This document shows positions 37,550 to 59,844 of a stretch of DNA of 64,000 nucleotides, piece by piece. Below the pieces are notes generated by a model. The model saw nothing but the letters and a program-made list of their open reading frames with translations, searched no databases and was not told the DNA's origin. The translations under genes were made by a program, and so were the position numbers. Positions within the stretch are counted from its first letter, which is position 1. Every line of letters starts with the position of its first letter. This DNA comes from Luteitalea pratensis (GTDB lineage Bacteria > Acidobacteriota > Vicinamibacteria > Vicinamibacterales > Vicinamibacteraceae). Where the stretch lies: NCBI RefSeq assembly GCF_001618865.1, contig NZ_CP015136.1, forward strand, positions 1,647,001-1,711,000, read 5' to 3'.

Positions 37550-40500
37550 TCAGCGTGGTCGGTACTCGCGCGCCAGGGCGAGCCCTAACTCATGCGTCGG
37601 ATTGCGCTGTAATAACCGTTCCACCGCGCGCAGACCGTCGGCGGTACGTCCGGCGGTCAAGTGAATCCGGGCGATGGTCACGTACGCGTTCTCGAAGGCC
37701 GGTGTTCTGGTCAACAGGTCCTCGAGCAGCGTCACCGCCTCTTCGGACCGGCCACGAGCCACGAGCACGAGGGCCAGGTTGTTGGTGGCGTCGCCGAAGT
37801 CGGGGCGGCGCGCCAGCGCCTCGCGGAAGTGCTTTTCAGCACCCTCGAGGTCGCCGCCGCGTCCGAGCAGCAGCCCCAGGTTGTTGAGCGCTTCGGGGAA
37901 ATCGGGCTGCAGGACGAGTGCGCGCTCGTACATGGGTCGAGCTTCCGCCTCGCGGCCAGTCAGCAGCAACGCATACCCGAGGTTGTTGAGTGCATCGGGA
38001 TACTCCGGCGTCGCCGCCAGCGCCTGCCGGAACCGTGCGATCGCGCCATCGAGATCGCCGTCCTGGGCCAGCAACGTGCCGAGATCGTTGTGCGCCTCGG
38101 CCAACGACGGGTCGAGTGCCAGCGCCGCTTCGTACGCGGCACGTGCTCGCGGTACCTGGCCCGTCTTGGTGAGCAGCGTGCCCAGGCGATACAGCACCGA
38201 GGCACTCGGATTGGCCTGCGACGCGCGCTCCAGGGCGACGATTGCCTCGGCCTCGAGCCCCTCGTCGAGCAGCTCCCGTCCGTATGGGAGGAAATTGCGC
38301 ATCGCCAGCGGCGCGTGGAAGGCGCCCGGGAAGGGCAGCGCTCGCGCCAGTCGCTCGCCTGCGGTCGCTTCGATCGCGGCGGCGTCACGCAGCACGCGTG
38401 CGGCGTCCACGCCGGCGTGGTAGGCACGGACGATGCCGCCGTTGCCATCGAGGAGCAGCGTCGTCGGGAGCGGCATCGGCGGGCGATTCATGAACAGGTG
38501 CCGGTACACGATCGCCCAGAGGAGGCCCTGCGCGTGCGTCGCATGCACGACCGGCACGGACGCCGGTGCCGCGGCCTTCACGCGCGCGGCCTGATCGGCA
38601 TCGTCCAGGGCAATCGCCAGCACGCCGACCTGCGCCGCATCGAGTTGCGCGCGTCCGCGGGCCAGCGCGTCGAGCGCCTGCAGAGATGCCGGGACGTCGC
38701 TGCGCCAGAGCAGCACGACCGACGGATGTCCCTTGAACGCCGCGAGCGTCTGCGTCGTGCCGCCGAGGCGCGTGGCGGTGAACTCGGGTGCCGGCAACGG
38801 CTCGTAGAACCACGTCGCGTCGGCGGGGGTCGAGGCGGGCGACGACGAACGTGAGGGACGGCTCGGAGAGCCGTCCCTACCAACGGATCGGTTCAGGGGT
38901 TCACGCTCGAGCGTGCCGCCTTCGACGAGGTGATAGCGCATGCCGACCGGAAGGTCGGTGAACTCCTGGGCCGTGCCTGTCGGCCACACCACCCTGAGAC
39001 GACGCACGGTGCTGCTGGTGCCGAGGCCGAACAGCAGTTCGCGCGAATGTTGCGACAGGAACCCCGACCCCGCCTGCACCACCTTGAGGTTCTTGACGAT
39101 GTCGGTCTCGACGAAAACCTTGGCGCCGATCGCGTCGCGATTGCTGGTGGTGCCGGTCAGGCGGATCGTCAGTCCGGCACGGGCGGGGTACTCGTTGCGG
39201 AAGACACGCAACTGTGGCGCCTGGCGAGCGGCCATGACGGCGAGGTCCGGGTCGCCATCACGATCCAGATCGAGCACCGCGAAGGATCGGCCGTCCTGAT
39301 CGAGATCGAGGCCGGTCGCGCCCGAGACGTCATCGAAATGGCCCTGTCCGTCGTTGCGCAGCAACACGTTGCGTTGGCGATTCGCGATCGAACCGTGCAC
39401 GAGCAACAGGTTCATCGCCCGCCACGCATCGTCATACGGCGAGCCCTTCATTCGCGTGAGGGGAGACCGCGCCACGACCTGACGCCAGAAGTAGCTGTCC
39501 AGGTCGGTTCGGTCGCCTGCCCGCGAGAGCATGCCGTTGGCGACGTACAGGTCCTGCCATCCGTCGCTATCGAAATCGAACGTATCGGACGCCCATGCCC
39601 AGCGTCCCATCGTCACGCCGGCTTCGGTGGACGTGTCGTCGAACGCGCCGTCGCCGCGGTTGCGGAACAGCGAGTTGCCGCGCGCGTGATGCCGATAGAG
39701 CGCTCGCACTTCGGGTGAGGCGTCAGGCATGAATGCGGCCGAGCCGGTGACGCGCTGTCCGGCAGCGCTCCACATGTTGCCGGCGTAGAGATCGAGCCGG
39801 CCGTCGTTGTCGTAATCGAGGAAGGCCGCGCTCATGCCGGCGCCGTGATCGAGGACCCCGGCGCGTGCCGCGACATCCTCGAAGCGGATCACCCCACCCT
39901 GGGCGCCGAGGTTGCGATACAGGTTCTTGGTGCCGAAATCGTTGGCGACGAAGAGGTCGGGCCAGCCGTCATCGTCGTAGTCGGCCCACGAGGCCGCGAA
40001 GTGATAGCGGTCGTTGCCGGTCCCGAGCCCCGCTTGCGCGGTGACGTCGACGAACTGGCCGTGGCCATCGTTCCTGAAGAGGACACCCGGTGGCCCGTTG
40101 CGGGCATCGTGATAGGGCATGGGCGTACCGGCCTTGTCCTCGCCGGCGCCGAAGAAGTACGAATACACGCACAGGTACGCGTCGAGGAAGCCATCGCGAT
40201 CGAAGTCGGCCATCGTGATGCCCGTGAGGACACCCTGCAGCGGCGACGCGAACGTAAACGCCTTGTCGACGACCGCAAAGTGCCCGCGCCCGTCGTTGAT
40301 CAACAACAGCGGCTGCAGGCTCATGGCCAGCACCAGGTCCTGGTCGCCGTCGTTGTCGATGTCGGCAAACAGCGACTGTGCGGTGTCGTCCAGCAGGCCG
40401 ACGCCGGACGCGGTCGTCACGTCCTCGAACGTGCCGTCTTCGCGCGCTCGAAGCAACCGGTTCGGGAGCCCGGACGGCTGCGCGACGTACAGGTCCTCGA

Positions 40501-41443
40501 GGCCATCACCGTCCGCGTCGCCGACCGAGACGCCGTGATGGCCGTTCGAATCCCGTGTCAGCACCGAATCGAGCCGGGCCATCCAGTCGTCGAGGTGGGT
40601 CGAGAACTGCCGCGCCGCCTCGCTGCCCGGGGCGACGACGTCCTGCGTGATCTCGCGAAAGAGTGGCGCCGGGGCACGGCTGGTCACGGAAGGACCTGCC
40701 GTCCATTCGACGATTTGCCACCCTGTGCCGACCCGTTGCCAGGCGATGTGCCAGGTGCCGACATGCGAGGCCCTTGCGCCGCCAGCCGACTGGCCGACGA
40801 TCTCGGCGCGTACGTCCGTGATGACGTTGCCCGTTGAAGCCTCACGCGAGGCCGGTGCCTGGCTTGCCGAGGCCTCACGCGAGGGTGGAACCGAAGGCGA
40901 CGATGGCGCTTGCCGCGCCGAAGCCGAAGGCGAAGGCAGGGCCGTCACCAAAAACTCCGTCACCGACACCGGTCCCAATGCAGCCGCCAGACGCCGCAGG
41001 TGCGCGATCATCGCGCGCTGGTCCAGTGTCGTCGCGGTGGACCCGGGCCAGTGGCGTATCTCGAGCGCGGTGGTGGCATCGGCGCGCGCCGCCTCGTCGA
41101 ACACGGCGCTGCCGCGGAAGCCAGGCGAGAAGAGTCCATTCGGTAACGCGGGCCGCGTGCCGTCGCCGCGCAGCCAGTCGCCGAGGTCCGACAGGCGCGC
41201 CTCGATGGCTTCGGCGTCGCGCTCGAAGGCGAAGCTGTCGGTGCCTGCGTCGACGTGCGACAGAAAAGGGGCGAGGGCTTCCGGCGTCTTCAGGGTCGGG
41301 CTGAACACCGGCTGTGGCGCCTGTGACCACACGCCTGTTGCGGTGAGAGCGACGATGGCCACGACCGCGACGGCAAAGAAGGCCGGGCTCGGAGAGCCGG
41401 TCCTGTCAGAAGCCACGTGCCATGCCCGCAACCGCTGGATCAC
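37550..41443 (-). CDS. FG-GAP/ASPIC-UnbV protein fused to thioredoxin-like and TPR domains
   Basis: 1297 residues from a GTG at 41443 that overlaps the stop of the upstream gene (GTGA). A hydrophobic N-terminal segment (FFAVAVVAIVALTATG) suggests export. FG-GAP/VCBS repeats with Ca2+-type loops (DADGDGLEDLYVA, DIDNDGDQDLVLA, DYDNDGRLDLYAG) run over about 290-740. An ASPIC/UnbV domain follows (IGAKVFVETDIVKNLKVVQAG, LLFGLGTSSTVRRLRVVWPTG). A thioredoxin/AhpC-like domain without a CxxC pair lies at about 900-1015 (HPSVVLLWRSDVPASLQALDAL). The last about 220 residues are TPR repeats. Two in-frame copies of repeat family C occur (residues about 12-18 and 854-862). Function unknown; likely envelope protein acting with the receptor. 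Confidence 0.85.
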   Translation of the reverse strand: MIQRLRAWHVASDRTGSPSPAFFAVAVVAIVALTATGVWSQAPQPVFSPTLKTPEALAPFLSHVDAGTDSFAFERDAEAIEARLSDLGDWLRGDGTRPALPNGLFSPGFRGSAVFDEAARADATTALEIRHWPGSTATTLDQRAMIAHLRRLAAALGPVSVTEFLVTALPSPSASARQAPSSPSVPPSREASASQAPASREASTGNVITDVRAEIVGQSAGGARASHVGTWHIAWQRVGTGWQIVEWTAGPSVTSRAPAPLFREITQDVVAPGSEAARQFSTHLDDWMARLDSVLTRDSNGHHGVSVGDADGDGLEDLYVAQPSGLPNRLLRAREDGTFEDVTTASGVGLLDDTAQSLFADIDNDGDQDLVLAMSLQPLLLINDGRGHFAVVDKAFTFASPLQGVLTGITMADFDRDGFLDAYLCVYSYFFGAGEDKAGTPMPYHDARNGPPGVLFRNDGHGQFVDVTAQAGLGTGNDRYHFAASWADYDDDGWPDLFVANDFGTKNLYRNLGAQGGVIRFEDVAARAGVLDHGAGMSAAFLDYDNDGRLDLYAGNMWSAAGQRVTGSAAFMPDASPEVRALYRHHARGNSLFRNRGDGAFDDTSTEAGVTMGRWAWASDTFDFDSDGWQDLYVANGMLSRAGDRTDLDSYFWRQVVARSPLTRMKGSPYDDAWRAMNLLLVHGSIANRQRNVLLRNDGQGHFDDVSGATGLDLDQDGRSFAVLDLDRDGDPDLAVMAARQAPQLRVFRNEYPARAGLTIRLTGTTSNRDAIGAKVFVETDIVKNLKVVQAGSGFLSQHSRELLFGLGTSSTVRRLRVVWPTGTAQEFTDLPVGMRYHLVEGGTLEREPLNRSVGRDGSPSRPSRSSSPASTPADATWFYEPLPAPEFTATRLGGTTQTLAAFKGHPSVVLLWRSDVPASLQALDALARGRAQLDAAQVGVLAIALDDADQAARVKAAAPASVPVVHATHAQGLLWAIVYRHLFMNRPPMPLPTTLLLDGNGGIVRAYHAGVDAARVLRDAAAIEATAGERLARALPFPGAFHAPLAMRNFLPYGRELLDEGLEAEAIVALERASQANPSASVLYRLGTLLTKTGQVPRARAAYEAALALDPSLAEAHNDLGTLLAQDGDLDGAIARFRQALAATPEYPDALNNLGYALLLTGREAEARPMYERALVLQPDFPEALNNLGLLLGRGGDLEGAEKHFREALARRPDFGDATNNLALVLVARGRSEEAVTLLEDLLTRTPAFENAYVTIARIHLTAGRTADGLRAVERLLQRNPTHELGLALAREYRPR

Positions 41444-43659
41444 CGGGAGGCTCCGGCCTGGGCCCCGGTACGTGTCTCCGGGGTCAGCGCCAGTGCGTGC
41501 AGGCGATCGATGGCCAGCCCGCGCCATGCCCACCGGGCACCGCCCGGCATGCGGACCTCGACGTCGACGGGAGCGGCATGCGCGCCGAGCCCGATCTGCA
41601 GCCGCAGGTCGCCCTGCGACATGAAGCTGCCGCCGGAGCGCACCTCCCGCACGAGGCGTCGCCCGGCGGCCGTGACCGTGACCCTGGCGCCGATGGCGAG
41701 CCGATTACCCGCAGGCGTGCCGAGCTGCAACGAGATCCAGTGATGGCCGGTGGCCTGGCGGTTCTCGAGCAGCGTCGGCGCGTCGTCCATGTTGCTGATC
41801 ACGACATCGGGGTCGCCGTCGTTGTCGATGTCGCCGACCGCCAGTCCACGACTGACCTTCATCACCTGGAGTCCCGGCCCGGCGGTAGAGGAGACATCGC
41901 GGAAGGTTCCCCCGGTGTTGAGCAGGAACTGGTTGCGTTGCGCGAAGGTCTCGCCGAGCTCCGGGTAGTCGCCGACGTCGGCAAAGATGTGACCGTTGGC
42001 GATGAAGAGATCGAGCTGCGCGTCGAGATCGGCATCGAGGAACGCGACGCCCCATCCCATGCGCTGGAACGTGATCGTCGCCAGTCCTGCCTGCAGCGAG
42101 GCGTCCTCGAACGTGGCGTTGCCAAGGTTCCGATACAGCGTGTTGCGGTCGTGCGCGAACGCGGTCAGCACGAGATCGACGCGCCCGTCCCCATCGGCAT
42201 CACCCGCGTCGACACCCATGCCGGCTTGCGCGCGGGCCTCGGCGTTGACGCCGACGCCCGCCAACAGTCCAGCGCTCTCGAACTGACCGTTGCCGAGATT
42301 GCGGTACAGGAAGTTCGGGTTCGAGTCGTTGGCCACGAACAGATCCACGGCGCCATCGTCGTCGACGTCGGTGGCGACGACGCCGAAGCCGTAGGCGCGC
42401 GCGGCATCGGCGAGGCCATGCGCCGCGGCGGCTTCGCGGAAGCGGCCGTTGCCAAGATTCTCGAAGAAGAGGTCCGACTCTCCGGGAAGCCCCGCGGGGC
42501 CGACCATGATGGCCGGGCCATTGCGCCATCGCAGCGTGCGGCGTGCTCGCTGCAGATCCTCGTCGGTGGCGCTCACATACCGCGCCACGTACAGGTCGAG
42601 GTCGCCGTCGGCATCGGCATCGAAGAACGTGCAGCCGGTGCTCCAGCCGCCGGCCGCGACCCCGGCCGCACTGGCGATGTCCTCGAACCGTCCATCGCCC
42701 TTGTTCCGGAACAGGAGATTCGTCCCCCAGTTCGTGACGTACAGGTCGACACGGCCGTCCCCGTCGGCGTCACCGGCGCACACGCCATTGCCCCAGGCCG
42801 CCGCGTCCACGCCGGCCTTGCGGGAGATGTCCTCGAAGCGCCAGTTGCCCAGATTGCGGTAAAGCGCGTTGCGGTGGGGAATGCGCGAGCGCGAGGCGTC
42901 GAGTTGCGCGGCGGTGACGAGATAGATGTCCAGCAGGCCATCGCCGTCCACGTCCACCAGCGCGACGCCGTTGCCCGGCGATTCGAGGATGTGGTCCTTG
43001 GCCGGTCCGCCATCCCACGTGCGCGTCGGCACGACGGCGTGTTCGTGGAAAGTGACCGGGCTCGGAGCGCCTGTCGCCTCCGCCGCACCCGCGGCTGGCG
43101 CCGGCCCCATCGCCGACGCGTGGCCGCCATAGACCGGCTCCTTCGCGCGCGCCTGGCTGTAGCTGCCCTGGAAGGTGAGGCCGAGGGCCACGTCCCCATC
43201 CAGCGCGGTGCGGAGCCGATCCAGTAAGGACTTGACGGGTGACGTGTCGACGGCCACGCCACCGTCGACCGCCGCGCGGAGTGCCCCGGCGGTGCGCCGC
43301 ACATCCGCGACAAGGTCAGCGCGCAGCACTCGCGCCGCCGCCTCATCACGGGCGATCGCCTCGAGCGATGCCGCAGCCCCTCGCAACGACTCGACGCGGT
43401 CCGCGGCCGTCGTCGAAGGGCTGTCTGCACGACGCAAGGCGTCCTCGGCCTGTCGGCGCAAGCCACCCAGGCGCGCGCGCGCGTCGTCACTTGCGGCGGA
43501 TGCCGGCGCAGCCTGGCGAGTCGCGCCCGGCACAGCCACAACTCCCGCCAGCAGCAGGGTCACACCGGTCATGCCTGCGTGCCTGCGGATCCCTCGCTCG
43601 AGGAACCCCAGGATGGTCGCTGGAGTCGTCCAGGTCACGATTGGCCCATTCTGGACCAT
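41440..43659 (-). CDS. FG-GAP/ASPIC-UnbV (CRTAC1-like) secreted protein
   Basis: 739 residues if begun at the ATG of 43659; the ATG at 43572 is possible but gives a signal peptide without positive charges. The hydrophobic segment is TGVTLLLAGVVAVPG. A helical, Ala-rich region (about 40-170) precedes FG-GAP repeats (VDVDGDGLLDIYLV, GDADGDGRVDLYVTNWG, DADADGDLDLYVARY). The C-terminal ASPIC/UnbV domain carries LGTPAGNRLAIGARVTVTAAG. A degenerate family C element encodes ATGAPSPVT near residue 195. Stop and start overlap (GTGA) couples it to the next FG-GAP gene. It is divergent from the ROK regulator. Confidence 0.85.
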   Translation of the reverse strand: MVQNGPIVTWTTPATILGFLERGIRRHAGMTGVTLLLAGVVAVPGATRQAAPASAASDDARARLGGLRRQAEDALRRADSPSTTAADRVESLRGAAASLEAIARDEAAARVLRADLVADVRRTAGALRAAVDGGVAVDTSPVKSLLDRLRTALDGDVALGLTFQGSYSQARAKEPVYGGHASAMGPAPAAGAAEATGAPSPVTFHEHAVVPTRTWDGGPAKDHILESPGNGVALVDVDGDGLLDIYLVTAAQLDASRSRIPHRNALYRNLGNWRFEDISRKAGVDAAAWGNGVCAGDADGDGRVDLYVTNWGTNLLFRNKGDGRFEDIASAAGVAAGGWSTGCTFFDADADGDLDLYVARYVSATDEDLQRARRTLRWRNGPAIMVGPAGLPGESDLFFENLGNGRFREAAAAHGLADAARAYGFGVVATDVDDDGAVDLFVANDSNPNFLYRNLGNGQFESAGLLAGVGVNAEARAQAGMGVDAGDADGDGRVDLVLTAFAHDRNTLYRNLGNATFEDASLQAGLATITFQRMGWGVAFLDADLDAQLDLFIANGHIFADVGDYPELGETFAQRNQFLLNTGGTFRDVSSTAGPGLQVMKVSRGLAVGDIDNDGDPDVVISNMDDAPTLLENRQATGHHWISLQLGTPAGNRLAIGARVTVTAAGRRLVREVRSGGSFMSQGDLRLQIGLGAHAAPVDVEVRMPGGARWAWRGLAIDRLHALALTPETRTGAQAGASR

Positions 43660-43662
43660 AAT
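43657..43662 (+). promoter_or_regulatory. Possible -10 box of the ROK regulator
   Basis: CATAAT at 43657-43662 is 15 bases before the ATG at 43678. No good -35 is visible. The site overlaps the proposed start of the divergent FG-GAP gene, so both transcripts would depend on this short region. Confidence 0.25.
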
Positions 43663-43677
43663 CGCGACCGAACGCCG

Positions 43678-44886
43678 ATGCGTCGCATCAACCTGACCGA
43701 GTTCCGGATCGCCCACCGGGGCACCTCGCGCGAAATCAACCGCCAGATCGCGCTCAATCTCGTGCGGACGCGGCAGCCGATCTCACGCGCCGAACTGGCG
43801 CGCCTGATGGGCGTGCGTCGCGGCGCGGTCAGCCGCCTCGTGCAGGACCTGCTCGACACGCAGCAGATTTTCGAAGGCGCCAAGGGGGAGACCAAGCGCG
43901 GCCGCAAGCCGCAGTACCTGTTCCTCGAGACGCGCCAACGATGCGTGGTGGCCGTGGACATCAGCGCCAGCCGGACGCTGGTGCAGGTGTCCGACCTGCT
44001 TGGACACCCGCTTCGCCCGCTCGAGCAGTTGCCGACGCCCGCCGATGCCTGTGAAGTCGTGCCACTGCTGGCCAGGGGCGTCGCCGCCGTCCTCTCCGAC
44101 AAGGCCGTCGTCGGCGAGTGCCTGGGGATCGGGGTGTCGATTGCGGGCCTCGTCGATACCGAACAGGGGCGGCTCCTGCGGGCGCCGACCCTCGGTTGGG
44201 TCGACGTCGCGCTGCGCGACCCGCTGCAGGAGGCGACCGGCCTGCCGGTCGTCGTCGAGAACAACGTGAAGGCGTCGGTCCTTGCCCAGCTCTGGGCGGT
44301 GCGGAGCACGGCCGCCGAGGGACCGGTGGTGTTTGTCAACGTGTCGGATGGCGTCGGCGTGGGCATTGCGCTCGACGGACAGCTCGTGCGCGGCGCCCGC
44401 AACGGCGCTGGCGAGTTCGGGCACATCCCAATCAGCATGGACGGGCCCCTGTGCGGGTGCGGGCTGCGCGGTTGCTGGGAGACGTACGCGTCGGTTGGCG
44501 CGACGGTGGCGCGCTATCTCGGGCGCAGCGCGTCGTGGCCCGATACCAACCCGCCCGACATCACGATGGAAGAGATCGTGGCGCGCGCCCACGCCGGCGA
44601 GGCGCACGCCCTCGACGTGCTGCAGCAAACCGGCGCGTACTTGGCGCGCGGCCTGTCGATGGTCGTCAAGGCCGTGCAGCCGGCCCGCATCTACATGAGC
44701 GGCGAGATCACCGACGCGTGGGACATCGTGCTGCCGTCGGTGCGTCGCGTCCTCCGTGAACTCACGCTGGTCCCCGAAGACGCCGACATCGAGATCGTCG
44801 TCGTCCCGGCCTCCGAGCAACCTCGCCTGCGCGGCGCCGCCGCCCTCGTCACCAGCCCCGCGTTCGCGGCTCCGGTCGTCGCGTAG
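43678..44886 (+). CDS. ROK family transcriptional regulator/sugar kinase
   Basis: 402 residues. The N-terminal winged helix (NLVRTRQPISRAELARLMGV, then RGAVSRLVQDLLD) marks it as an NagC/Mlc-type regulator, not a free kinase. The ROK domain has VAVDISASRTLVQVSDLLG, the sugar-binding region GVSIAGLVDTEQGRL and NNVKASVLAQLW. The zinc site and signature are GEFGHIPISMDGPLCGCGLRGCWE (His plus the CGCGxxGC cysteines; quoted in part). It is probably a sugar-responsive repressor of the divergent FG-GAP and TonB receptor genes, which is inferred from position. Confidence 0.9.
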   Translation: MRRINLTEFRIAHRGTSREINRQIALNLVRTRQPISRAELARLMGVRRGAVSRLVQDLLDTQQIFEGAKGETKRGRKPQYLFLETRQRCVVAVDISASRTLVQVSDLLGHPLRPLEQLPTPADACEVVPLLARGVAAVLSDKAVVGECLGIGVSIAGLVDTEQGRLLRAPTLGWVDVALRDPLQEATGLPVVVENNVKASVLAQLWAVRSTAAEGPVVFVNVSDGVGVGIALDGQLVRGARNGAGEFGHIPISMDGPLCGCGLRGCWETYASVGATVARYLGRSASWPDTNPPDITMEEIVARAHAGEAHALDVLQQTGAYLARGLSMVVKAVQPARIYMSGEITDAWDIVLPSVRRVLRELTLVPEDADIEIVVVPASEQPRLRGAAALVTSPAFAAPVVA

Positions 44887-44962: not shown

Positions 44963-44976
44963 GATGCGTGGTGCAC

Positions 44977-45002
44977 GTAGCCGTCGACCTTCAGGTCGAC
45001 GG
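44977..45002. repeat. Palindromic element, family A
   Basis: GTAGCCGTCGACCTTCAGGT followed by CGACGG; same core as 6331-6356 and 60014-60039. Confidence 0.7.
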
Positions 45003-49949: not shown

Positions 49950-52900
49950 TTGGCATGGGTGGGCGTCGATTCCCTGGTCGTGGCGTGCTGGCTAGTTGCT
50001 CGAGTCGCCGAGTGGCGGCGGATCGGCCGGCCTGCGGCGTGCCGGGTGGTGTTGACGCTGCTGCTGCTGGCGTTGGCCGCGCCAGCGACGGCGCAGCCTG
50101 GAGCAGCACGACCCGGCGACGACGGGCGCGTGGCTCGGCTGACGGCCGGGGCGCCCTCCGACACGGCCAGTGCCACGGCCATCGCCGGTTGGCGTCAGCG
50201 CGTACGCGTCGATCCCACGATCCGGCTCATCGTCCTGCTGGCGACGGCGGATCCGACCGCTCCCGCCCTAAATGCTGCTGCGCGCGCAGCCAACGCGGGC
50301 GCGCTCGGGCGCGTCGTCGCTCGCCTGGGCCCGCACGTCCGCGCGGCTCGTACGTTGTCGACCCTGCCCCTTGCCGCCCTTGACGTCGATGCCGACGGAC
50401 TGGAGACGCTCCTGGCCGATCCGTCGGTGGCGACAGTAGAAGAAGACCAGGCGCTGCAGCGCGCGCTGGCGCAGAGCGTGCCACTGGTGCAGGCCGATCG
50501 CGTCTGGGCGCAGGGCTACCGCGGGTTCGGATGGGCCGTCGCGGTCCTGGACGATGGCCTGGACACGGGGCATCCCGCATTCGGCGGGCGAGTGGTCGCC
50601 GAAGCCTGTTATTCCGGCCACGGGAGTCCCGGCAGCAGTATCTGTCCTGGTGGCGTGTTCGCGTCCACCGCAGCGGGATCGGCCGCCCCCTGCCCCGGAT
50701 GCACGCACGGCACGCACGTCGCCGGCATCGCGGCCGGATCGACAGGTGTCGCACCCGAGTCGTCGGTGATCGCGATGCAGGTGTTCTCGAGCGACGGGCT
50801 CGCGTACTTCAGCGACATCCTGCACGCGATCGATCGCGTGCTCGTGCTCGCGAATACGTACCACGTGGCGGCACTCAACCTGAGCCTCGGCAACGGCACC
50901 ACGCATTTCGGTACCTGCGACGACACGTCGCCGTCGGTGTTCACCGCCTTCGTGTCATTGCGCGCCGTCGGGATTGCGCCTGTCGTCGCCTCCGGCAACA
51001 CGGGCACGGCCACCGGTCTCGAGTTCCCGGCGTGCCTGTCGAACGCGGTGAGCGTCGGGAGCACATCGAAGGCCGACGTCGTCGAGGCGTACAGCGACGC
51101 CTCCAGCCAATTGCAGTTGCTCGCGCCGGGTGGCGCCATCACGGCCCCCGTATCCGGCGGCGGTTACGCGACCAAGAGCGGCACGTCCATGGCCGCGCCT
51201 CACGTGGCGGGCGCGTGGGCCCTGCTGCGGCAGCGGGTACCGGCGGCCTCAGTGAGCACCATCCTGGCCGCGCTGAGCACGACCGGGGTCTGGATCACCG
51301 ATGCACGCACTGGGGCGCTGTTCCCGCGGATCCGCATCGCCGACGCTGCCGAAGCGATCGCGACCCTCGGCATCAGTCCGACAACCTGGGCGCCGTTGGC
51401 GACTGGCGGCACCCAGGCGGTGGTCGTCACGAGCGCGCCCGCGGCTGCCTCGTGGTCGGCATCGACCGATGCTGCGTGGCTGTCGGTGAGCCCCGCATCG
51501 GGCGTCGGGAGCGGCAGCACGACGTTGACGGCGACCGCGCACACGACGTCGGCCCTGCCGCGCACGGCGACAGCGACCATCGCCGGCCACAGCGTCGCCG
51601 TGACGCAATCGGGCGCGACGCCCACCTTGACTTTATCGGCGACCACCTGGGAGATCGGACCGGCCGCCGCGACGCGTATGCTGACACTGACCAGTTCGCT
51701 GCCGGACGCCACCTGGTCGGCCACGAGTTCGCAGCCCTGGCTCACCGTCGTCCCGGCCGCCGGCACGGGAAGCGCGACGCTGGGCGTTTCCGTCTCGGCT
51801 CACACGTCGTCGGTATCTCCACGCACCGCCGCGATCACCGTTGCCGGCCAGACGTTCACGGTCATGCAGGCGGGCGCCACGCCGTCGATCACGGCGGGCC
51901 CGACGGCGGTGACGATCGCCGCCGCCGGCGGCACGGCCCCCGTCGCGTTGAACGTTTCGCCCTCCGACGCACCGTGGACGGCGTCCGCGGATGCGTCCTG
52001 GCTGGTTCTCGACCGCGTCAGCGGTGCAGGCGACGCCACCATCACCATCACCGCGGGGCCGCACTCGGGGTCGGCGTTCTCGCGGACCGGCACGGTCACG
52101 ATCGGCGGTCAGGCCGTCACCGTGAAGCAGGCAGGGGCGACGCCTTCGTTCATGGCGACGCCCTCGAGCGTCGATCTGTCCGCGGCCGGAGGCGCCGTGA
52201 CGATCACGCTCACGAGCACGCTTCCCGACGCTTCGTGGACGGCGTCCTCGACGACGCCGTGGCTTGCCGTGCAGCCGCAGTCCGGCATCGGCTCGACGAT
52301 CGTCACCGTCACTGTAGCGCCGCACACGCTGGTGCAGTCACGCAGCGGGACGGTCTCGGTTGCTGGCCAGGTCGTGACACTCAGCCAACAGGGTGCGCCA
52401 AGCGTGTTCACCGCGTCACCGCTGTCGTTGGATGTCCCAGTCGGTGGCGCACTCGCCTCCGTGGTCCTCACGACAACGGCCACGAATGCGCCATGGACCG
52501 CGGTCAGCGACGTCGCGTGGCTCTCCGTCACGCCCACGAGCGGTCACGGCAGTGCGACCCTGGACGTCGCGGTCGACGCTACGACCCCTGCGCAACCGCG
52601 CACCGGGACCATCACTGTCGCCGGTCACGTGATCACCGTGATGCAGGGCGGTGGCGCCCCCGCTGCCAGTATCACGGAGACCGCGTGGATCGCGCCGATC
52701 ACCGGCGGCACGCGTGCGCTCGCGCTCGATGTGTCCGGTTCGACGGGGTCATGGACGGCAACAAGCGACGCGGCATGGCTGACGGTGAGCCCCGTGCACG
52801 GCACCGGCGACAGCGACGTCCTGATCGCGGCGCTTCCGTCCGGCAGCAATGGCGCTGGACTGCCGTCGTTCGCGCTGCCATCGACCATCCCAACGACGAC

Positions 52901-54347
52901 CGCGGTGGTCGTGGTCTCGCAACCGTTCGACGGCGGCATCCGGACGGGAACCCTGGTCTTCACGCCGCATCCGCCCACGACCCTGTATACGCGCTACCTG
53001 GCCGAGGGCGCATCGTCGGCGTTTTTCGACACGTGCCTTGCGCTCCTCAACCCGGGCACCGTTGCAACGACCGCCACGCTGTCATTCCTGCGCTCCGGGC
53101 GAGAGCCGCTCGAGGTCCAGGTGGACGTGCCCGCGGGCACGCGGCGGACGGTGTGGCCTCGCGATCACCTCGGCCCTGGTGATGCGCAGTTCTCGACGAT
53201 CGTGTCCGCATCGCAGCCGCTCGTGGTCGACCGCACGATGACGTGGGATGGGTCCGGCTATGGCGCACACGCCGAGACGGCCACGACCGAGCCTTCACCA
53301 CGCTGGTACTTTGCCGAGGGAGCCACGCACAGCGGCTTCGCGCTGTTCTACCTGCTGCAGAATCCCGGCGACGCGACCGTCACCGCCCGCGTGCGCTACC
53401 TGCGCGCCGGCGCGCCGCCGATCGAGAAGACGTACACGCTCGCGCCACGATCGCGCACGAACATCTGGGCCAACCTCGAGGAGTTTCCCGGGCTCGGGCG
53501 GGCCCTGGCGTCGACCGAAGTGAGTGCCGTGATCGAGACGACGGGTGGCGAACCGATCATCGCCGAACGTGCGATGTATCGCTCGACGACGGGCCGGCTG
53601 TTCGACGCGGGACACGAGAGCATGGGCGTCAGGGCACCGTCGACGCGCTGGTTCCTGGCCGAGGGACGCACCGGTCCGTTCTTCGACGAGTTCATCCTGC
53701 TTGCCAACCCGGCCGACGTCGACGCGTCCGTGCGGATCACGTACCTGCTCGACGACGGCAGGACGTACGTGCGGACGCTTGTGGCACCCGCGGCTGCGAG
53801 AACGAGCCTCTGGGTGGATCACGAGACGATCGACGGTGTGGCAGGCGAGCCCCTGGCCGATGTCGCGCTGTCGGCGACCGTGGAGTCACTCAACGGCGTG
53901 CCCCTCATGGTGGAGCGCGCGATGTGGTGGCCTGGCGACGGCTCGACCTGGCACGAAGCACATGCGTCGGCAGGCGCCGTCGAGACCGGCGTGATGTGGG
54001 CGATGGCGGAGGGCGAGGTTGGTGGCGACCGTGCGGCGCAGACGTACGTGCTCATGGCGAACACCTCGACGTTCGAGGGGCGTGCTCGCGTGACGCTGTT
54101 GTTCGAGGATGGCCAGTCGGCGAGTCGGATTTACGGACTGCCGGCGTCGTCGCGCACCAACGCCGCGATCGGCCCGGACTTCGGCGCCGTGGTCGACCGG
54201 CGAAGGTTCGGCGTCATCGTCGAGGCGCTGGGCACTGACGAGGCCGCGCCGGTCCCGAGAATCGTCGTCGAGCGCGCGATGTACTCAGACGCCAACGGCG
54301 TGGCCCTCGCTGCAGGCACCAACGCGCTCGCGACCAGGCTGAGGTAG
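49950..54347 (+). CDS. Secreted subtilisin-like protease with six BACON domains and four C-terminal repeats
   Basis: About 1465 residues; the start is uncertain (TTG at 49950 after GGTGGAG, or GTG at 49959; the ATG at 49848 lies in repeat DNA). A signal peptide (RVVLTLLLLALAAPATAQ) and an I9-like propeptide (about 55-165) precede a peptidase S8 domain. Its triad is Asp in AVAVLDDGLDTGHPAF (about 199), His in CTHGTHVAGIAAG (about 253) and Ser in KSGTSMAAPHVAGAW (about 412). Six BACON-like modules follow, each with a WxASxDAxWLSVSP pattern and VTVxQxG ends (about 470-905). Four repeats carrying YLAEGASSAFFDTCLALLNPG-like motifs (RWYFAEGATHSGF, RWFLAEGRTGPFFDEF, MWAMAEGEVGG) end the protein. An exported adhesin-like protease is suggested. 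Confidence 0.88.
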   Translation: MAWVGVDSLVVACWLVARVAEWRRIGRPAACRVVLTLLLLALAAPATAQPGAARPGDDGRVARLTAGAPSDTASATAIAGWRQRVRVDPTIRLIVLLATADPTAPALNAAARAANAGALGRVVARLGPHVRAARTLSTLPLAALDVDADGLETLLADPSVATVEEDQALQRALAQSVPLVQADRVWAQGYRGFGWAVAVLDDGLDTGHPAFGGRVVAEACYSGHGSPGSSICPGGVFASTAAGSAAPCPGCTHGTHVAGIAAGSTGVAPESSVIAMQVFSSDGLAYFSDILHAIDRVLVLANTYHVAALNLSLGNGTTHFGTCDDTSPSVFTAFVSLRAVGIAPVVASGNTGTATGLEFPACLSNAVSVGSTSKADVVEAYSDASSQLQLLAPGGAITAPVSGGGYATKSGTSMAAPHVAGAWALLRQRVPAASVSTILAALSTTGVWITDARTGALFPRIRIADAAEAIATLGISPTTWAPLATGGTQAVVVTSAPAAASWSASTDAAWLSVSPASGVGSGSTTLTATAHTTSALPRTATATIAGHSVAVTQSGATPTLTLSATTWEIGPAAATRMLTLTSSLPDATWSATSSQPWLTVVPAAGTGSATLGVSVSAHTSSVSPRTAAITVAGQTFTVMQAGATPSITAGPTAVTIAAAGGTAPVALNVSPSDAPWTASADASWLVLDRVSGAGDATITITAGPHSGSAFSRTGTVTIGGQAVTVKQAGATPSFMATPSSVDLSAAGGAVTITLTSTLPDASWTASSTTPWLAVQPQSGIGSTIVTVTVAPHTLVQSRSGTVSVAGQVVTLSQQGAPSVFTASPLSLDVPVGGALASVVLTTTATNAPWTAVSDVAWLSVTPTSGHGSATLDVAVDATTPAQPRTGTITVAGHVITVMQGGGAPAASITETAWIAPITGGTRALALDVSGSTGSWTATSDAAWLTVSPVHGTGDSDVLIAALPSGSNGAGLPSFALPSTIPTTTAVVVVSQPFDGGIRTGTLVFTPHPPTTLYTRYLAEGASSAFFDTCLALLNPGTVATTATLSFLRSGREPLEVQVDVPAGTRRTVWPRDHLGPGDAQFSTIVSASQPLVVDRTMTWDGSGYGAHAETATTEPSPRWYFAEGATHSGFALFYLLQNPGDATVTARVRYLRAGAPPIEKTYTLAPRSRTNIWANLEEFPGLGRALASTEVSAVIETTGGEPIIAERAMYRSTTGRLFDAGHESMGVRAPSTRWFLAEGRTGPFFDEFILLANPADVDASVRITYLLDDGRTYVRTLVAPAAARTSLWVDHETIDGVAGEPLADVALSATVESLNGVPLMVERAMWWPGDGSTWHEAHASAGAVETGVMWAMAEGEVGGDRAAQTYVLMANTSTFEGRARVTLLFEDGQSASRIYGLPASSRTNAAIGPDFGAVVDRRRFGVIVEALGTDEAAPVPRIVVERAMYSDANGVALAAGTNALATRLR

Positions 54348-54387
54348 TGAGGGCTCATGGCTATGGCGTATGGCTTCGGGCTTACGT

Positions 54388-54500
54388 TCAAGCCTCAAGC
54401 CTCAAGCCTCAAGCCTCAAGCCTCAAGTCTCAAGTCCCAGGTCTCAAGCACTTACCTGAGACATGAGACGTGAGACGTGAGACGGCTTGAGACATGACAG
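54388..54500. repeat. Heptanucleotide array, units AAGCCTC and TGAGACA/G
   Basis: CAAGCCT repeats (six or more) pass through CAAGTCT/CAGGTCT variants into the inverse type ATGAGAC/GTGAGAC. The two halves are partly complementary, so the transcript could fold. Confidence 0.8.
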
Positions 54501-54534
54501 ACTCGGGTCTGAAGCCGCAGGTTAGAGTGGACGC

Positions 54535-56382
54535 GTGACCGGACCTGCCGCGCCGCCCGCGATGCCGTCGCCTGACGCTGTCTACCGGGCCCGGGTGACG
54601 CAGTACGAGGCGGTGGCCGACGCTGCGGACGAGCGATCGCGTTGGCACTCACGCGCGCGCTTGGTGGTCGTCACGATCGCGGTGGCGGCGCTCGTCGTGC
54701 TCGTGCGATCGCCACTCGCGTCCAGCGCTGCGCTGCTGGGCTTCAGCGTCATCGTGTTCGCGTGGCTCGTGGTGCGGCACGACCGTATCGAGCGTCGCCG
54801 CGACGCGGCCCTCGCGATGGTGTCCCTCAACAGGCATGCGCTCGCTCGCCGGGCCCGGTCGTGGCACGACCTGCCCGCGCCGTGGCAGCCTGCGGTGCCC
54901 GACGATCACCCCTTCGCTGCCGACCTCGACATCTTTGGTCACGCCTCGCTGGTGCAGGTCATCGGGCCCGTGCGAACACCCACGGGCCGGCGTTCGCTCG
55001 CCGAGTGGCTGCTCCACGGCGGTGCCTCGCCACTCGAGGCGATTCACGACCGCCAGGCAGCGGTACGCGAACTGGTGCCGGCGCTCGACTTCAGGCAGCA
55101 GTTGTCCGCGCTTGCGCGCCTCCTGCCGGAGGCCACGGGCAGCGGCGGCGACCACGAACTGCCGGCGGCCGTGCACTGGGCCGAGGCGCGCAACGGGCTC
55201 GGTGGGCGTGGGTGGGTATCGGTCATGGCGGTGGTGCTCGGCGTGGCCACCGTGACTGGCGCCATCGGCGCCTACATCGGCGTGGTGACCGGCTCGTGGT
55301 GGCTGCTGACGGGACTGCTCGGCTGGGTGCTGCGCTGGTGGGTCCACGAACCGCTGGAGCACGCCGTCGGCGGGGCGTCAGGGGAGCACGGGCTTCGACC
55401 GTGGGCTGCCGTGATCGGGCATGTCCACGCGGCCCGATTCGCGTCGCCGTTGCTCGCTGCCGCGCGTGCCGACATCGACGCCGCACCGGCGGCGCTGCGC
55501 CAGCTCGAGCAACTCGTGGCGCTCTCCGACGTCCGGCACACGGCCTGGCTGTTCGTGCCGCTGCATACGCTGACGTCGTGGGACCTCCACGTCTGGTGGC
55601 TCATCGAGCGCTGGCGCCAGCGACACGGCGCCGACGTCCGCCGCTGGCTCGAGGCGGTCGGCCGCATCGATGCGGCCGGTGGTCTGGCCGCGCTCGCGTT
55701 CGATCAACCGCAGTGGACGTTCCCGCTCGTCGATCCGACGACGGGGGTGATCGAAGGGGCGGATGTCGGCCACCCGCTGCTGGCCGATGCCGTCCGTGTC
55801 CCCAACGACGTGCAGCTCGGCCCGCCCGGACGCTTCCTGCTCATCACCGGATCCAACATGTCGGGCAAGAGCACGCTGCTCCGCGCCATCGGCCTGAATG
55901 TCGTCCTCGCCCACGCGGGTGGTCCCACGTGCACGACGGCGTTCCGTGTGCCGCGGCTAACGCTTCACACGAGCATGCGCGTGTCCGACTCGCTCGAACT
56001 CGGACTCTCGCTGTTCATGGCGTCGCTGGTGCGACTGCAACAGATCGTGCATGCCGCGCGCATCGCCACGGCCGACCGGCGCGTCTGCTTCCTGCTCGAC
56101 GAGGTGCTGCAGGGCACCAACAGCGCCGAGCGTCAGATTGCGGTGCGGACGGTGGTCGACCACCTGCTCGGGTGCGAGGCGATCGGCGCGGTGACCACGC
56201 ACGATCTGGAACTCGCGCGCGACGCGGGGTTCACCGCGCACGCCGACAGCTTCCACCTGCAGGAGACGCTTGCCGGCAGCGGGCCGACCATCTCGATGAC
56301 CTTCGACTATCGTCTGCGGCCAGGGCCCGCGCAGGCCGGCAACGCGCTGCAACTGCTGCGCATGCTCGGCCTCGCCGAGTAG
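54535..56382 (+). CDS. Membrane-associated MutS-like ATPase
   Basis: 615 residues from a GTG at 54535. Two helix pairs occur near the N-terminus (about 40-80) and at about 220-265 (VMAVVLGVATVTGAIGAYIG, WWLLTGLLGWVLRWW). The C-terminal ATPase is of the MutS type: Walker A FLLITGSNMSGKSTLLRAIG (about 435-455), the signature LELGLSLFMASLVRLQQIV, Walker B VCFLLDEVLQGTNSAERQ and the switch region GAVTTHDLELA. The mismatch-binding and connector domains are absent. Such membrane MutS-domain proteins are widespread but uncharacterised, and a role in mismatch repair is not expected. Confidence 0.87.
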   Translation: MTGPAAPPAMPSPDAVYRARVTQYEAVADAADERSRWHSRARLVVVTIAVAALVVLVRSPLASSAALLGFSVIVFAWLVVRHDRIERRRDAALAMVSLNRHALARRARSWHDLPAPWQPAVPDDHPFAADLDIFGHASLVQVIGPVRTPTGRRSLAEWLLHGGASPLEAIHDRQAAVRELVPALDFRQQLSALARLLPEATGSGGDHELPAAVHWAEARNGLGGRGWVSVMAVVLGVATVTGAIGAYIGVVTGSWWLLTGLLGWVLRWWVHEPLEHAVGGASGEHGLRPWAAVIGHVHAARFASPLLAAARADIDAAPAALRQLEQLVALSDVRHTAWLFVPLHTLTSWDLHVWWLIERWRQRHGADVRRWLEAVGRIDAAGGLAALAFDQPQWTFPLVDPTTGVIEGADVGHPLLADAVRVPNDVQLGPPGRFLLITGSNMSGKSTLLRAIGLNVVLAHAGGPTCTTAFRVPRLTLHTSMRVSDSLELGLSLFMASLVRLQQIVHAARIATADRRVCFLLDEVLQGTNSAERQIAVRTVVDHLLGCEAIGAVTTHDLELARDAGFTAHADSFHLQETLAGSGPTISMTFDYRLRPGPAQAGNALQLLRMLGLAE

Positions 56383-56591
56383 ATGGCCCGAAACCCAGCA
56401 GGCTTGCAGAGTGTTCGATACTGAGCCACTTTTGTCGGGATTGCGCACATCACGCGAAGGGCCGGGGACGACAAAGGGCCAGAGCCCGCGGACCCTGGCC
56501 TGTGCCAGTGGTGCGCGAACTCCGGCCACTGTCTGCTGCCTGTCCGCCGAAGCCTTGGCAAAGACGTGAAAAGATGCAGCCCTGCAGTATT

Positions 56592-56852
56592 TCACGTCGT
56601 GATGCGCCGGCCTCCCGTCGCCATGCGATAGATCGCGAGCAGCACAATGGCGCCGAGCAATGACATCACGAAGCCTGCCGGGTCATTCTGGCCGTACAAG
56701 CCCATCACCTGGCCGAGGAAACCGCCAAGCAGCGAGCCGACGATGCCGATCAGCATGGTCACGATGATGCCGCCCGGATCTCGCCCAGGCATCACCAGTT
56801 TGGCCAACGCACCGATCACCAACCCGAACACGATCCAGCCAAGAATGCCCAT
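56592..56852 (-). CDS. GlsB/YeaQ/YmgE family stress-response membrane protein
   Basis: 86 residues from the ATG at 56852 with GAGGAGGGG upstream. Three short helices with the family pattern GWIVFGLVIGALAKLVMPGR, DPGGIIVTMLIGIVGSLLGG and GFVMSLLGAIVLLAIYRM. Small inner-membrane proteins of this family are often induced by stress; the molecular role is unknown. It is divergent from the LamG-like protein. The 209 bases upstream of the MutS-like gene end hold a GGCTTCGGCG-type element (about 56545-56570). Confidence 0.9.
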   Translation of the reverse strand: MGILGWIVFGLVIGALAKLVMPGRDPGGIIVTMLIGIVGSLLGGFLGQVMGLYGQNDPAGFVMSLLGAIVLLAIYRMATGGRRITT

Positions 56853-56955
56853 AGCACGCCCCTCCTCAATGCAGGTCGCCGGCAGCGACGTGCTGCGCGT
56901 TGACCGATCTGTCGGCGGATCCGTATTGCACGGACCGATCCACCATAATGCCGCG

Positions 56956-57654
56956 ATGCGGACCACCTCGACGATTGCCGGCTCCACGTGCACCGCGCTG
57001 GCCGCCCTGGCCCTTGGTGTTTCGCTGCTGGCAGCAGAGTTGTCCGCCTTCGCCTTGGCGGACGCGGAACAGGTGACCAGCAGGCCCACCTTCGCACCAC
57101 AGTCGCTCGACAAGGAATGGACGCTCGACGGCACCGGCATCTGGGCCCTGCGCGATGGCCTGCTCGCCCTCGTCACGGCCGGCAAGCCCGGCGGACCGAT
57201 CCGCCGCCCGTCTGCCGTGGCTCTCGTCAACGGTCCCAACCTCACGGATACGACCTTCGAAGTGGAGGTTCGCTCCACCGCCGCGCTGCCACCGGTCACG
57301 CCACGCCGCGACGCGCTCCTGGTCGCGGCCTACCAGTCGCCGACGCGGTTCTACTACGTGCACCTGTCGGCCGCGCGAGACGATGTCCACAACGGCATCT
57401 TCCTGGTGAACGACGCCGATCGGCGCCGCATCGACTCGCGTTCGGAGATCGCGCCGCTGGTGGATCAGGAGTGGCACCGCGTACGACTCGTGCGGACTGC
57501 TGCGACGGGTCGTCTCGAGGTCCATGTCGACGAGCGGACCGAGCCGATCATGATCGCCACCGACAAGACGTTGGGATGGGGCCGGGTCGGCGTCGGGTCG
57601 TTCGACGACACCGCCGAGTTCCGCCACGTTGTCGTCACCGGCACGAAGAAATAG
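56956..57654 (+). CDS. Secreted LamG/concanavalin-like protein
   Basis: 232 residues from the ATG at 56956. A signal peptide (ALAALALGVSLLAAELSAFA) is followed by a beta-sandwich of the family seen in DUF1080/LamG proteins: TTFEVEVRSTAALPP, ALLVAAYQSPTRFYYVHLSA, DQEWHRVRLVRTAATGRLEVHVD and GWGRVGVGSFDDTAEFRHVVV. These domains bind or cleave carbohydrates in some relatives. No catalytic residue set can be assigned here. Transcribed alone. Confidence 0.7.
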   Translation: MRTTSTIAGSTCTALAALALGVSLLAAELSAFALADAEQVTSRPTFAPQSLDKEWTLDGTGIWALRDGLLALVTAGKPGGPIRRPSAVALVNGPNLTDTTFEVEVRSTAALPPVTPRRDALLVAAYQSPTRFYYVHLSAARDDVHNGIFLVNDADRRRIDSRSEIAPLVDQEWHRVRLVRTAATGRLEVHVDERTEPIMIATDKTLGWGRVGVGSFDDTAEFRHVVVTGTKK

Positions 57655-57717
57655 GGCGGACGCCGACGGGCTCGTGTCGCGCCGACTTGGGCGCCGAAGC
57701 CGTGGCGGAGGCGCCCG

Positions 57718-59844
57718 TCAGCCGCCGAGGCGACCGATGACGGCGCGGAGGTCGACAGGGGTGCCGCGCAGGATCGGGTTCCACAGATCGCCGGTGGTCT
57801 CGAACCGCGTGAACGCGTTCTCGAGCGTGAAGTCCTCGGGCCGGATGTCCTGGTCGAGTTCATCCCACTGCAGCGGCGTCGAGACGCCGGCAAACTGGCT
57901 CGCGCGGGCGCTGTAGGCGCAGGCCAGTGTCTTGCCCTCGATGTTCTGCAGGTAGTCCACGTAGACGGTGCGTCCGCGCCGGGCGACCGCCCGCTCCACG
58001 GTCGCGACCTTGGGATGCTGCGACGCGACCGCGGTGGCGATGATCTGGCACAGCAGCTGGCCGGACTGGTAAGACGTGCCTTCCGCCAACGGGATGTAGA
58101 TGTGCAGGCCTGACGACCCCGACGTCTTGAGCGCCGCCGGGACGTCGAGCATTACGAGCGCCTCGCGGACCCAGCGCGCCACGTCGCGCACCTGCGCGAA
58201 AGGCACGCCCGGCATCGGGTCGAGATCGATCGCCACGAAATCGGCCGCCGCGGGCGAGGCCGCCCGAGAGAACCACGGGTCGAGCGAGATGGCGCCGAGT
58301 TGCGCCACGTACAACAGCGTCAGCAACGATCCGCCGATGAGCCGCGGCATCGGCCCGTCGTCGTCCTCGTCGCCTTCGACGACCTGCACGTTGACGCCCG
58401 CCGGGACGGTGTCGGGTGCGCGCTGCTGGTAGAACGCCTTGCCGAGCACGCCGTTCGGATAGCGCTTCATGACCAGTGGGCGATCAGCAATCACCGGCAA
58501 CAGCCATGGCGAGATGCGCGCGTAGTACCGCAGCAGGTTACCCTTGGTCAGGCCCGACGCTGGCCAGAAGACCTTCTTCGGGTTCGTGACCTCCAGCACG
58601 CCGTCAGGCAGCGTCAGAGAGCCGTCGCGCCCGGCGTCCTCGAGTAACTGGAGCTGTTCGACGATGGCGGTGATGGGAAGGTAGGGACGCCTCTCCGAGG
58701 CGTCCATGTCCACACCTGCGCCCTCCAGGGAGGATTCGCGCATCGTCGCCCTTGGTCGGGGCTGTTGCGCTGGACGGCTCGGAGAGCCGTCCCTACCTGT
58801 CGGATCGACCGCGTCAGGGCCGACGTCGTCACGCAGCCCGAGGAAGACCGGATGACGCAGTCGCCCCTCAGGCGTCCACTCGCTGAACCGCACCTCGCAG
58901 AGCAGTCTGGGATCCACCCAGTGCTGTCCGCGGGCGCGCGGGGCATCGACGAACGGCGACGTGGTCCGTGCCAGCGGTCGCAGCCGCAGGAGGAGATCCG
59001 AGATGGCCGCGTCGCTGAACCCGCCACCGACGTTGCCCGCGTAGCACAGCGTCGCGTCGCTGCCCTTCGCAGGGCGCGCCGGCTTGCCGCGCGCATCGGT
59101 GAAGCGTCCGACCATCAGGGCGCCGAACCCGGATCGCGTCCCCTTCGGGTCGGTCCAGCCGCCGATCACCAGCGTCGCCGTCTTGTGCAGCTTGACCTTC
59201 CGCCATGTCCGCGAGCGCACGCCGGACAGGTACGGCGCGTCCGCATCCTTGACGATCAGTCCCTCCCAACCCTCCCGTTTGGCCTGTGCCAGCACGTTCC
59301 TGCCGTGTCCGGCGACGTAGAGGCCTTCACGCAGGCGCTCGCTGGTGCGCACGTGCAGCAGGTACTCCAGCCTGGCGCGGCGTGCAGCCAGGGGCAGTGG
59401 ACGGAGATCCTCGACCCCCTCGCGCAAGAGGTCGAACACTACCAGGGCCGTCGGCACCGTCGCCGACCGGGCGTCGATGTCCATCGCGCCCTTGAGGTGC
59501 ATGCGGGATTGCAGCGCGGTGAAGGACGCCGGTTGTCCCCGGGCGTCAAGGGCGACGACTTCGCCGTCGAGGATCACCGTCCCGGACAACTGCGCTGCCA
59601 GTTCGCGCAGGGCGCGGACGATCTCGGGAAACTGCGTGGCCTTGTCGTTGCCGTTGCGCGACAACAGGCGGACCCGCGCGCTCGGATGGGCCGGTTCGAC
59701 GATGACGATGGCGCGGATGCCGTCGAACTTCTGTTCGTAGAGCATCGATGAGTTGTCGAGGTTAAGGGCGTCCAACTCACACGGGGTGGCCAGCATCGGC
59801 GCGGGGGGCGCCTCGTCACGCCAGAGCTGGACCGTACGGGCCAT
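57718..59844 (-). CDS. ligD: ATP-dependent DNA ligase D (ligase plus polymerase domains)
   Basis: 708 residues. The ligase domain has the nucleotidyl-transfer lysine in YEQKFDGIRA (Lys39), ILDGEVVALDARGQP, WEGLIVKDADAPY and WRKVKLHKTATLVIGG, with the OB-fold to about 340. After a linker a primase-type polymerase domain (about 415-700) follows: KVFWPASGLTKGNLLRYYARI, PLVMKRYPNG, the catalytic Asp pair in FVAIDLDPMPG, SGSSGLHIYIPL and YLQNIEGKTLACAYS. The phosphoesterase domain of Pseudomonas/Mycobacterium LigD is absent. The linker contains an in-frame family C element (GRDGSPSRP, about residues 349-358). Divergent from the Ku gene 244 bases away; the pair performs non-homologous end joining. 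Confidence 0.93.
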   Translation of the reverse strand: MARTVQLWRDEAPPAPMLATPCELDALNLDNSSMLYEQKFDGIRAIVIVEPAHPSARVRLLSRNGNDKATQFPEIVRALRELAAQLSGTVILDGEVVALDARGQPASFTALQSRMHLKGAMDIDARSATVPTALVVFDLLREGVEDLRPLPLAARRARLEYLLHVRTSERLREGLYVAGHGRNVLAQAKREGWEGLIVKDADAPYLSGVRSRTWRKVKLHKTATLVIGGWTDPKGTRSGFGALMVGRFTDARGKPARPAKGSDATLCYAGNVGGGFSDAAISDLLLRLRPLARTTSPFVDAPRARGQHWVDPRLLCEVRFSEWTPEGRLRHPVFLGLRDDVGPDAVDPTGRDGSPSRPAQQPRPRATMRESSLEGAGVDMDASERRPYLPITAIVEQLQLLEDAGRDGSLTLPDGVLEVTNPKKVFWPASGLTKGNLLRYYARISPWLLPVIADRPLVMKRYPNGVLGKAFYQQRAPDTVPAGVNVQVVEGDEDDDGPMPRLIGGSLLTLLYVAQLGAISLDPWFSRAASPAAADFVAIDLDPMPGVPFAQVRDVARWVREALVMLDVPAALKTSGSSGLHIYIPLAEGTSYQSGQLLCQIIATAVASQHPKVATVERAVARRGRTVYVDYLQNIEGKTLACAYSARASQFAGVSTPLQWDELDQDIRPEDFTLENAFTRFETTGDLWNPILRGTPVDLRAVIGRLGG

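Follow-up and report, generated by a model that had tools for sequence, protein, structure and literature searches.

How can one short hairpin come to lie in frame within several unrelated proteins without breaking their genes? The question is raised by a 64,000-nt stretch of contig NZ_CP015136.1 of Luteitalea pratensis (hereafter the window), in which a preliminary description noticed a repeated hairpin both between genes and, in frame and mostly at domain linkers, within them, for example in ligD and in a gene for an FG-GAP/TPR protein. The element is a GTAG-type repetitive extragenic palindrome (REP), a short hairpin that itself carries no gene. Copy number and orthologue comparison largely support the described pattern of in-frame insertion. 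Mobilisation by REP-associated tyrosine transposases (RAYTs), followed by purifying selection, is very probably the best explanation of the intragenic copies.

Structure and abundance of the element

On its tag strand, the element consists of an unpaired GTAG at one end of the palindrome, followed by a 9-bp stem and mostly the loop TCC (for example, GTAGGGACGGCTCTCCGAGCCGTCC). GTAG REPs are defined in Table 1 of Di Nocera et al. 2013 (PMC3733652) as short palindromes with a stem of 5-13 bp and a loop of 2-20 bp. A variant with one bulged base is common, accounting for 59 of the 224 elements of a wider set, which was drawn from the window itself, from 80 spaced and 20 targeted stretches and from 60 loci of 3 kb. 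A computation for single-stranded DNA showed that the tag with its 9-bp stem and 3-base loop folds; the bulged variant was equalled in this by 7 of 200 shuffled sequences.

The genome of L. pratensis (G000), a single contig of 7,480,314 bases, contains hundreds of copies. A search of all 7.48 Mb with one 20-mer gave 495 near-copies, whereas its reversed control gave 5; exact 14-base cores numbered 142, against 2 in the control. Within the window, 5 matches to the 20-mer with at most 3 mismatches were found (shuffle mean 0.08), as well as 5 to the GGACGG... form (shuffle mean 0.03), the latter at 3 places, 2 of them counted on both strands.

A spaced sample of 80 near-evenly spaced stretches plus the window (1.664 Mb in total) holds 204 GTAG-tagged hairpins. 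The counts for eight other tags range from 18 to 92, and some of these tags catch REP strands too. The main family accounts for 100 of the GTAG hairpins, by a loose definition of the loop, while 41 have the loop TTCA or close to it, 33 have CTTG or close to it, and the 30 others look like chance occurrences. The loops TTCA and CTTG mark two further GTAG REP families, intergenic in 38 of 41 and 32 of 33 cases, respectively, and represented in the window at 6297-6321.

Like other many-copy GTAG REPs, the element occurs as singles, outward-facing pairs and tandem arrays. Many plus/minus pairs in the spaced sample lie 45-145 bp apart, start to start. Beside the gene of one transposase, RAYT 1, 15 REP units, each about 56 bp long, form a tandem array (L031:488-1294). 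A second tandem array, with units of about 66 bp, lies at 5,517,770-5,518,811 of the genome. A replication-strand bias was considered and set aside: among the 100 family members, 48 are on the plus and 52 on the minus strand, with no trend by eye along the genome, a judgement that was not tested statistically and in which one tandem array dominates one bin.

Associated transposases

L. pratensis was compared with six other genomes, of which G001 to G004 share its genus and G005 and G006 its family. G001 is the metagenome-assembled genome (MAG) Ga0077522, and G003 is Luteitalea sp. TBR-22.

RAYT 1, at about 4,000,308-4,000,772 of the L. pratensis genome, is a 154-aa protein that matches the Pfam family Y1_Tnp and has TnpA-REP (4er8, E 2.2e-8) as its best PDB match. 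Its gene is flanked by REPs and ends in a TAG stop codon that belongs to a REP tag. REPs, there with other stems, also stand on both sides of RAYT 2 in the same genome and of the RAYTs of G001 and G003. The motifs MPDH(V/L)H and YLR.NPVRAG are common to all four proteins. An HUH motif, a conserved tyrosine, taken to be the catalytic one, and the relation to TnpA-REP mark these proteins as RAYTs, and it is a hallmark of GTAG REPs that such a gene is accompanied by REPs of its own type. No RAYT was found with the RAYT query in G002, G004 or G005.

Two further transposase-like sequences were encountered. A weaker RAYT match in G003 (L245:1346-2083) has loop-TTCA REPs on both sides, and because they flank this stretch, the loop-TTCA family may have a transposase of its own, with the stretch as the candidate. 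In L. pratensis, a broken remnant of a Y1 transposase lies at 2,122,613-2,122,866 (L033:1501-1754), in two pieces and with a TAG inside.

Position relative to genes and reading frame

With genes called by our own codon-usage caller, the element was found to be predominantly intergenic, as is typical of GTAG REPs. Of the 100 family members of the spaced sample, 72 fall between genes, 14 across a gene end and 14 within genes, compared with 16,731 of 20,000 random places that fall within genes. The wider set of 224, for which the element itself was excluded from the gene score, comprises 173 intergenic and 21 partially overlapping elements, 26 inside genes with at least 20 codons on both sides, and 4 inside genes near an end, which were omitted from the frame count.

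Since the bulge shifts the phase, raw phases were regrouped by the frame of the tag. Three favoured frames account for 24 of the 26 intragenic elements, reading GR(D/A)xS(P/L)S in 11, (L/F)G(E/Q)(P/R/A)(A/S)LP in 7 and SE(S/R)xPY in 6. Two other open frames account for the remaining 2, and the sixth contains a stop, as the tag there reads as TAG. This bias corresponds to p = 0.0003 against an expected 0.6, assuming independence; among the 16 elements with coding-like flanks, 15 are in the three favoured frames. Simple hydropathy was rejected as its cause: among favoured readings, GRLGEPAL and AGLGEPAL lack hydrophilic character, and the avoided TARRAVP does not exceed GRLGEPSL in hydrophobicity.

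Host proteins and orthologue comparisons

Pfam matches place copies between the domains of LigD, the FG-GAP/TPR protein, a ThiL-like AIRS protein, a CcmA-CcmB fusion (CcmAB) and a radical-SAM protein. Others stand before the domain of a GFO/IDH/MocA oxidoreductase and in the tail of a glycosyltransferase. In gamma-glutamyltranspeptidase (GGT), a copy lies inside the domain, immediately before the segment GDTT, which we take to be the autocleavage site. A further host, referred to here as the exonuclease-like gene, has hits to metallo-beta-lactamase models that fall short of the curated cut-offs; it is presumably a ligase-associated exonuclease, and the name ThiL is likewise our assumption.

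The in-frame copies described in ligD and the FG-GAP/TPR gene of the window were both confirmed. In the FG-GAP/TPR protein (P0002), the copy corresponds to about residues 885-893, between UnbV_ASPIC (801-867) and AhpC-TSA (914-1043). In LigD, it lies between DNA_ligase_A_C (to residue 340) and LigD_Prim-Pol (from 433). A second, inverted copy is also present in ligD, so that this gene holds an outward-facing pair as seen elsewhere in the genome.

Orthologues were compared for six genes (ligD, FG-GAP/TPR, exonuclease-like, GGT, ThiL and CcmAB). The clearest case is the exonuclease-like gene, which carries a 33-nt (11-residue) in-frame insert containing the entire REP. This insert is absent from all three orthologues that were found (G001, G002 and G003), with the flanks aligned; no orthologue was found in G004. 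Clean presence and absence between intact flanks, as anticipated in the preliminary description, is seen in this gene only, as the linkers of ligD and FG-GAP/TPR are too divergent. It is also here that an ancestral peptide, shared with element-free orthologues, is most cleanly excluded, and no such shared peptide was found for ligD or FG-GAP/TPR.

In GGT, the REP peptide is absent from G001, G002 and G003, in a linker of varying length (a G004 match, 42% identical, was not used). No GTAG hairpin was found in the ligD loci of G002 to G006, while G001 carries a REP pair with other stems; a ligD scan of named genomes yielded one close relative, which is G001, its 18 other hits being distant and set aside. 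The FG-GAP/TPR orthologue of G003 has neither a REP nor such a peptide. In the orthologue of G001, a REP occupies the corresponding linker and the reading frame shifts there, indicating either a broken gene or an assembly error; 18-bp tandem repeats lie beside this REP, at the frame shift (L207:4855-5090). For ThiL, no REP was found in G002, G003 or G004, and G001 has a single one, at the position of a second, degenerate REP of L. pratensis. CcmAB has no REP in G003 and G004, both of which also have the fusion; in G001 a REP is present, after which the contig ends. Altogether, G003 is without the element in all six genes, and G001 has a REP in four of the six linkers (ligD, ThiL, FG-GAP/TPR and CcmAB).

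Variation among species

Copy number differs sharply among species of the genus. One search pattern gave 339 REPs in L. pratensis, 134 in G001, 76 in G004, 16 in G003, 2 in G002, 1 in G006 and 0 in G005. A pattern with a wider, bulge-free stem gave 244, 174 and 60 in L. pratensis, G001 and G003, 1 each in G002 and G004, and 0 in G005 and G006.

Stem sequences differ as well. Stems beginning with GGAC make up 80 of the 100 matches listed for L. pratensis, compared with 8 of the 50 listed for G001. The ligD pair has the stems GGACGGCTC and GGACGCCTC in L. pratensis, and GGCCCGTTC and GGCCGGCTC in G001. The latter are the types found beside the RAYT of G001, and the ligD types of each species are common among its own listed matches. 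In CcmAB, G001 carries GGACCGCTC, seen in 4 of its 50 listed matches, and L. pratensis carries GGCC types; a GGCC type is also present in the ThiL gene of L. pratensis, and these types are a minority of its listed matches. Stems therefore match the species in ligD but not in CcmAB, nor in ThiL of L. pratensis, and the correspondence is partial.

Origin of the intragenic copies

Under mobilisation followed by purifying selection, RAYTs of the TnpA-REP type, with their HUH motif and tyrosine, would most likely move the REP as single-stranded DNA. Selection would remove most insertions within genes. The copies that survive would preserve the frame, avoid the one in which the tag reads as TAG, and lengthen the protein by a short peptide, usually at a domain linker, close to an end or within a loop. 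The RAYT presumably catalyses REP movement, and the host proteins probably stay active without gaining a function.

Several findings weigh against this explanation. With 76 REPs by one pattern, G004 yielded no RAYT to the RAYT query. The best-proven insertion, that of the exonuclease-like gene, does not use a favoured frame but one of the other two that are open. The 26 intragenic elements are spread over fewer genes, some standing in pairs and three sharing one gene, and for 10 of them a flank is weakly coding by our gene caller, so the p-value of the frame bias is optimistic. In addition, the linkers of ligD, FG-GAP/TPR, GGT, ThiL and CcmAB vary in length between species, which makes the exact ends of the insertions unreadable in these five genes.

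Among other explanations, convergence of immobile, low-complexity linker sequence in a GC-rich genome is hardly credible. Linkers are indeed hypervariable, and a REP-like stretch of the window at 43052 is exactly such a case, but for tagged copies this reading is already refuted by the reversed control (495 against 5), and the tag with its paired stem and the 33-nt insert of the exonuclease-like gene also speak against it. It is similarly difficult to see the hairpin or its peptide as domesticated, that is, as useful to the host proteins, for instance in DNA repair. REPs in ligD and in a gene resembling a ligase-associated exonuclease would fit such a role and echo the repair genes noted in the main text of PMC3733652, yet the other hosts (GGT, ThiL-like, CcmAB, glycosyltransferase, radical SAM and oxidoreductase) are unrelated, strand, frame and peptide vary, and the six orthologues of G003 do without the element. 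A domesticated function is thus very unlikely.

A more serious alternative, to which we give somewhat less than an even chance, is that the insertions in the ligD, ThiL, FG-GAP/TPR and CcmAB linkers predate the split of L. pratensis and G001, their stems having later been replaced by gene conversion or repeated RAYT action. This would add to mobilisation and selection and does not contradict them. REPs in the same linker in four of six genes would rarely be expected from random landing; moreover, the ThiL REP of G001 and the second REP of L. pratensis are equidistant from the same 3' flank, and the ligD pairs share order, orientation and frames while differing in stems. However, the distance of the ligD pair to conserved flanks differs between the two genomes, the G001 contig ends within the CcmAB linker, and the FG-GAP/TPR frame of G001 shifts at repeats. 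The match of stem to species also fails in CcmAB, both for GGACCGCTC of G001 and for the GGCC types of L. pratensis, which fail in ThiL as well, and independent landing in tolerant linkers would also explain the different stems. A stronger version, in which intragenic REPs persist at the same linkers across speciation and both arms of the stem are rewritten, in frame, to the genome's other REP types, seems unlikely, and is weakened because the stem fits the types beside the species' RAYT in ligD and not in CcmAB. If true, the evolution of linkers in unrelated proteins would be coupled to that of a mobile repeat and its transposase.

Relation to known systems

GTAG REPs, their RAYTs and their intragenic copies, many of them in replication and repair genes, were defined by Di Nocera et al. 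2013, whose main text (PMC3733652) includes one intragenic REP in a DNA ligase of O. terrae and speculates on a role of intragenic REPs in DNA repair. Acidobacteria are named once in that main text, for transposases flanked by terminal inverted repeats (TIRs). The Luteitalea elements resemble the GTAG REPs described there in their tag, short stem and loop, pairs and clusters, REP-flanked RAYT and tag-supplied TAG stop, as well as in being mostly intergenic with some copies in genes, including repair genes. They differ from those cases in phylum, here Acidobacteriota. Going by this source, intragenic GTAG REPs have been known in other phyla since 2013, and Luteitalea is a further example. Added here are the depletion in genes, the presence/absence tests in orthologues, the three-frame bias, and a second species with REPs in four of the same six genes but with other stems.

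The preliminary description likened the element to Rickettsia palindromic elements (RPEs). This analogy holds for function, both being palindromic repeats in frame within unrelated genes, but not for type. RPE sequences of R. conorii end in CGTC, and CGTC repeats are without associated transposase genes in the account of PMC3733652, whereas the Luteitalea tag is GTAG and RAYT genes adjoin.

Escherichia coli is a second point of comparison, as its TnpA-REP is the best solved-structure sequence match of RAYT 1. Its REPs and bacterial interspersed mosaic elements (BIMEs) are essentially extragenic, and their stem sequences differ from those of Luteitalea. The E. coli REPs are placed in the GTAG family in the text of PMC3733652.

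Among the papers listed in literature searches, no title or opening of an abstract describes these elements in Luteitalea, nor was any literature linking REP sequences with LigD. The main text of PMC12306157 contains neither "Luteitalea" nor "intragenic", and in PMC8852301 "palindromic" occurs only in the title of a reference. The genus offers a case, tested with orthologues, in which a tiny mobile element adds a peptide to enzymes while leaving the gene unbroken. Spanning few to hundreds of copies per species, Luteitalea is suited to testing directly whether REPs within genes are neutral, functional or driven by conversion.

Copies in the window

Table 1. REPs, host genes and a REP-like stretch in the window (window coordinates)
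Feature	Position	Strand	Remarks
Intergenic REP	24243..24268	-	Bulged stem
Intergenic REP	33539..33564	-	Tag mutated to GTCG; bulged stem
FG-GAP/ASPIC/AhpC-TSA/TPR gene	37550..41443	-	Hosts one clear REP
REP in FG-GAP/ASPIC/thioredoxin-like/TPR gene	38856..38880	-	Encodes GRDGSPSRP in frame
Degenerate REP, tag lost	41381..41406	-	Extreme N-terminus of FG-GAP/TPR or 5' leader; start codon uncertain
REP-like stretch, not an insertion	43052..43076	-	Inside second FG-GAP gene
ligD (ATP-dependent DNA ligase + primase-polymerase)	57718..59844	-	Hosts REP pair
REP 2 of ligD pair, inverted	58681..58705	+	Read through as MDASERRPYL; missed in the preliminary description
REP 1 of outward-facing pair, ligD	58772..58796	-	Encodes GRDGSPSRP
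Intergenic REP	59960..59985	+	Bulged stem
Intergenic REP, loop-expanded	61079..61137	+	Second palindrome in loop

A further copy had been placed at 41391-41406, within the FG-GAP/TPR gene. It exists and is somewhat longer, but its tag is degenerate, and it is coding only with a start at GTG 41443 or 41416. The start is likely GTG 41443, which overlaps the stop of the upstream gene, although our gene caller favours 41362.

The stretch at 43052-43076, described as a degenerate copy, was rejected as an insertion. The G003 orthologue has the same length there and that of G001 is two residues longer, with no insert-sized gap in either. The stretch is ancestral protein sequence, shared with element-free orthologues and REP-like by resemblance only.

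The four intergenic copies, originally located at 24243, 33539, 59959 and 61077, were all recovered. The CcmAB fusion and an FG-GAP protein (L168, L162) contain peptides that resemble the long form of the last, loop-expanded one.

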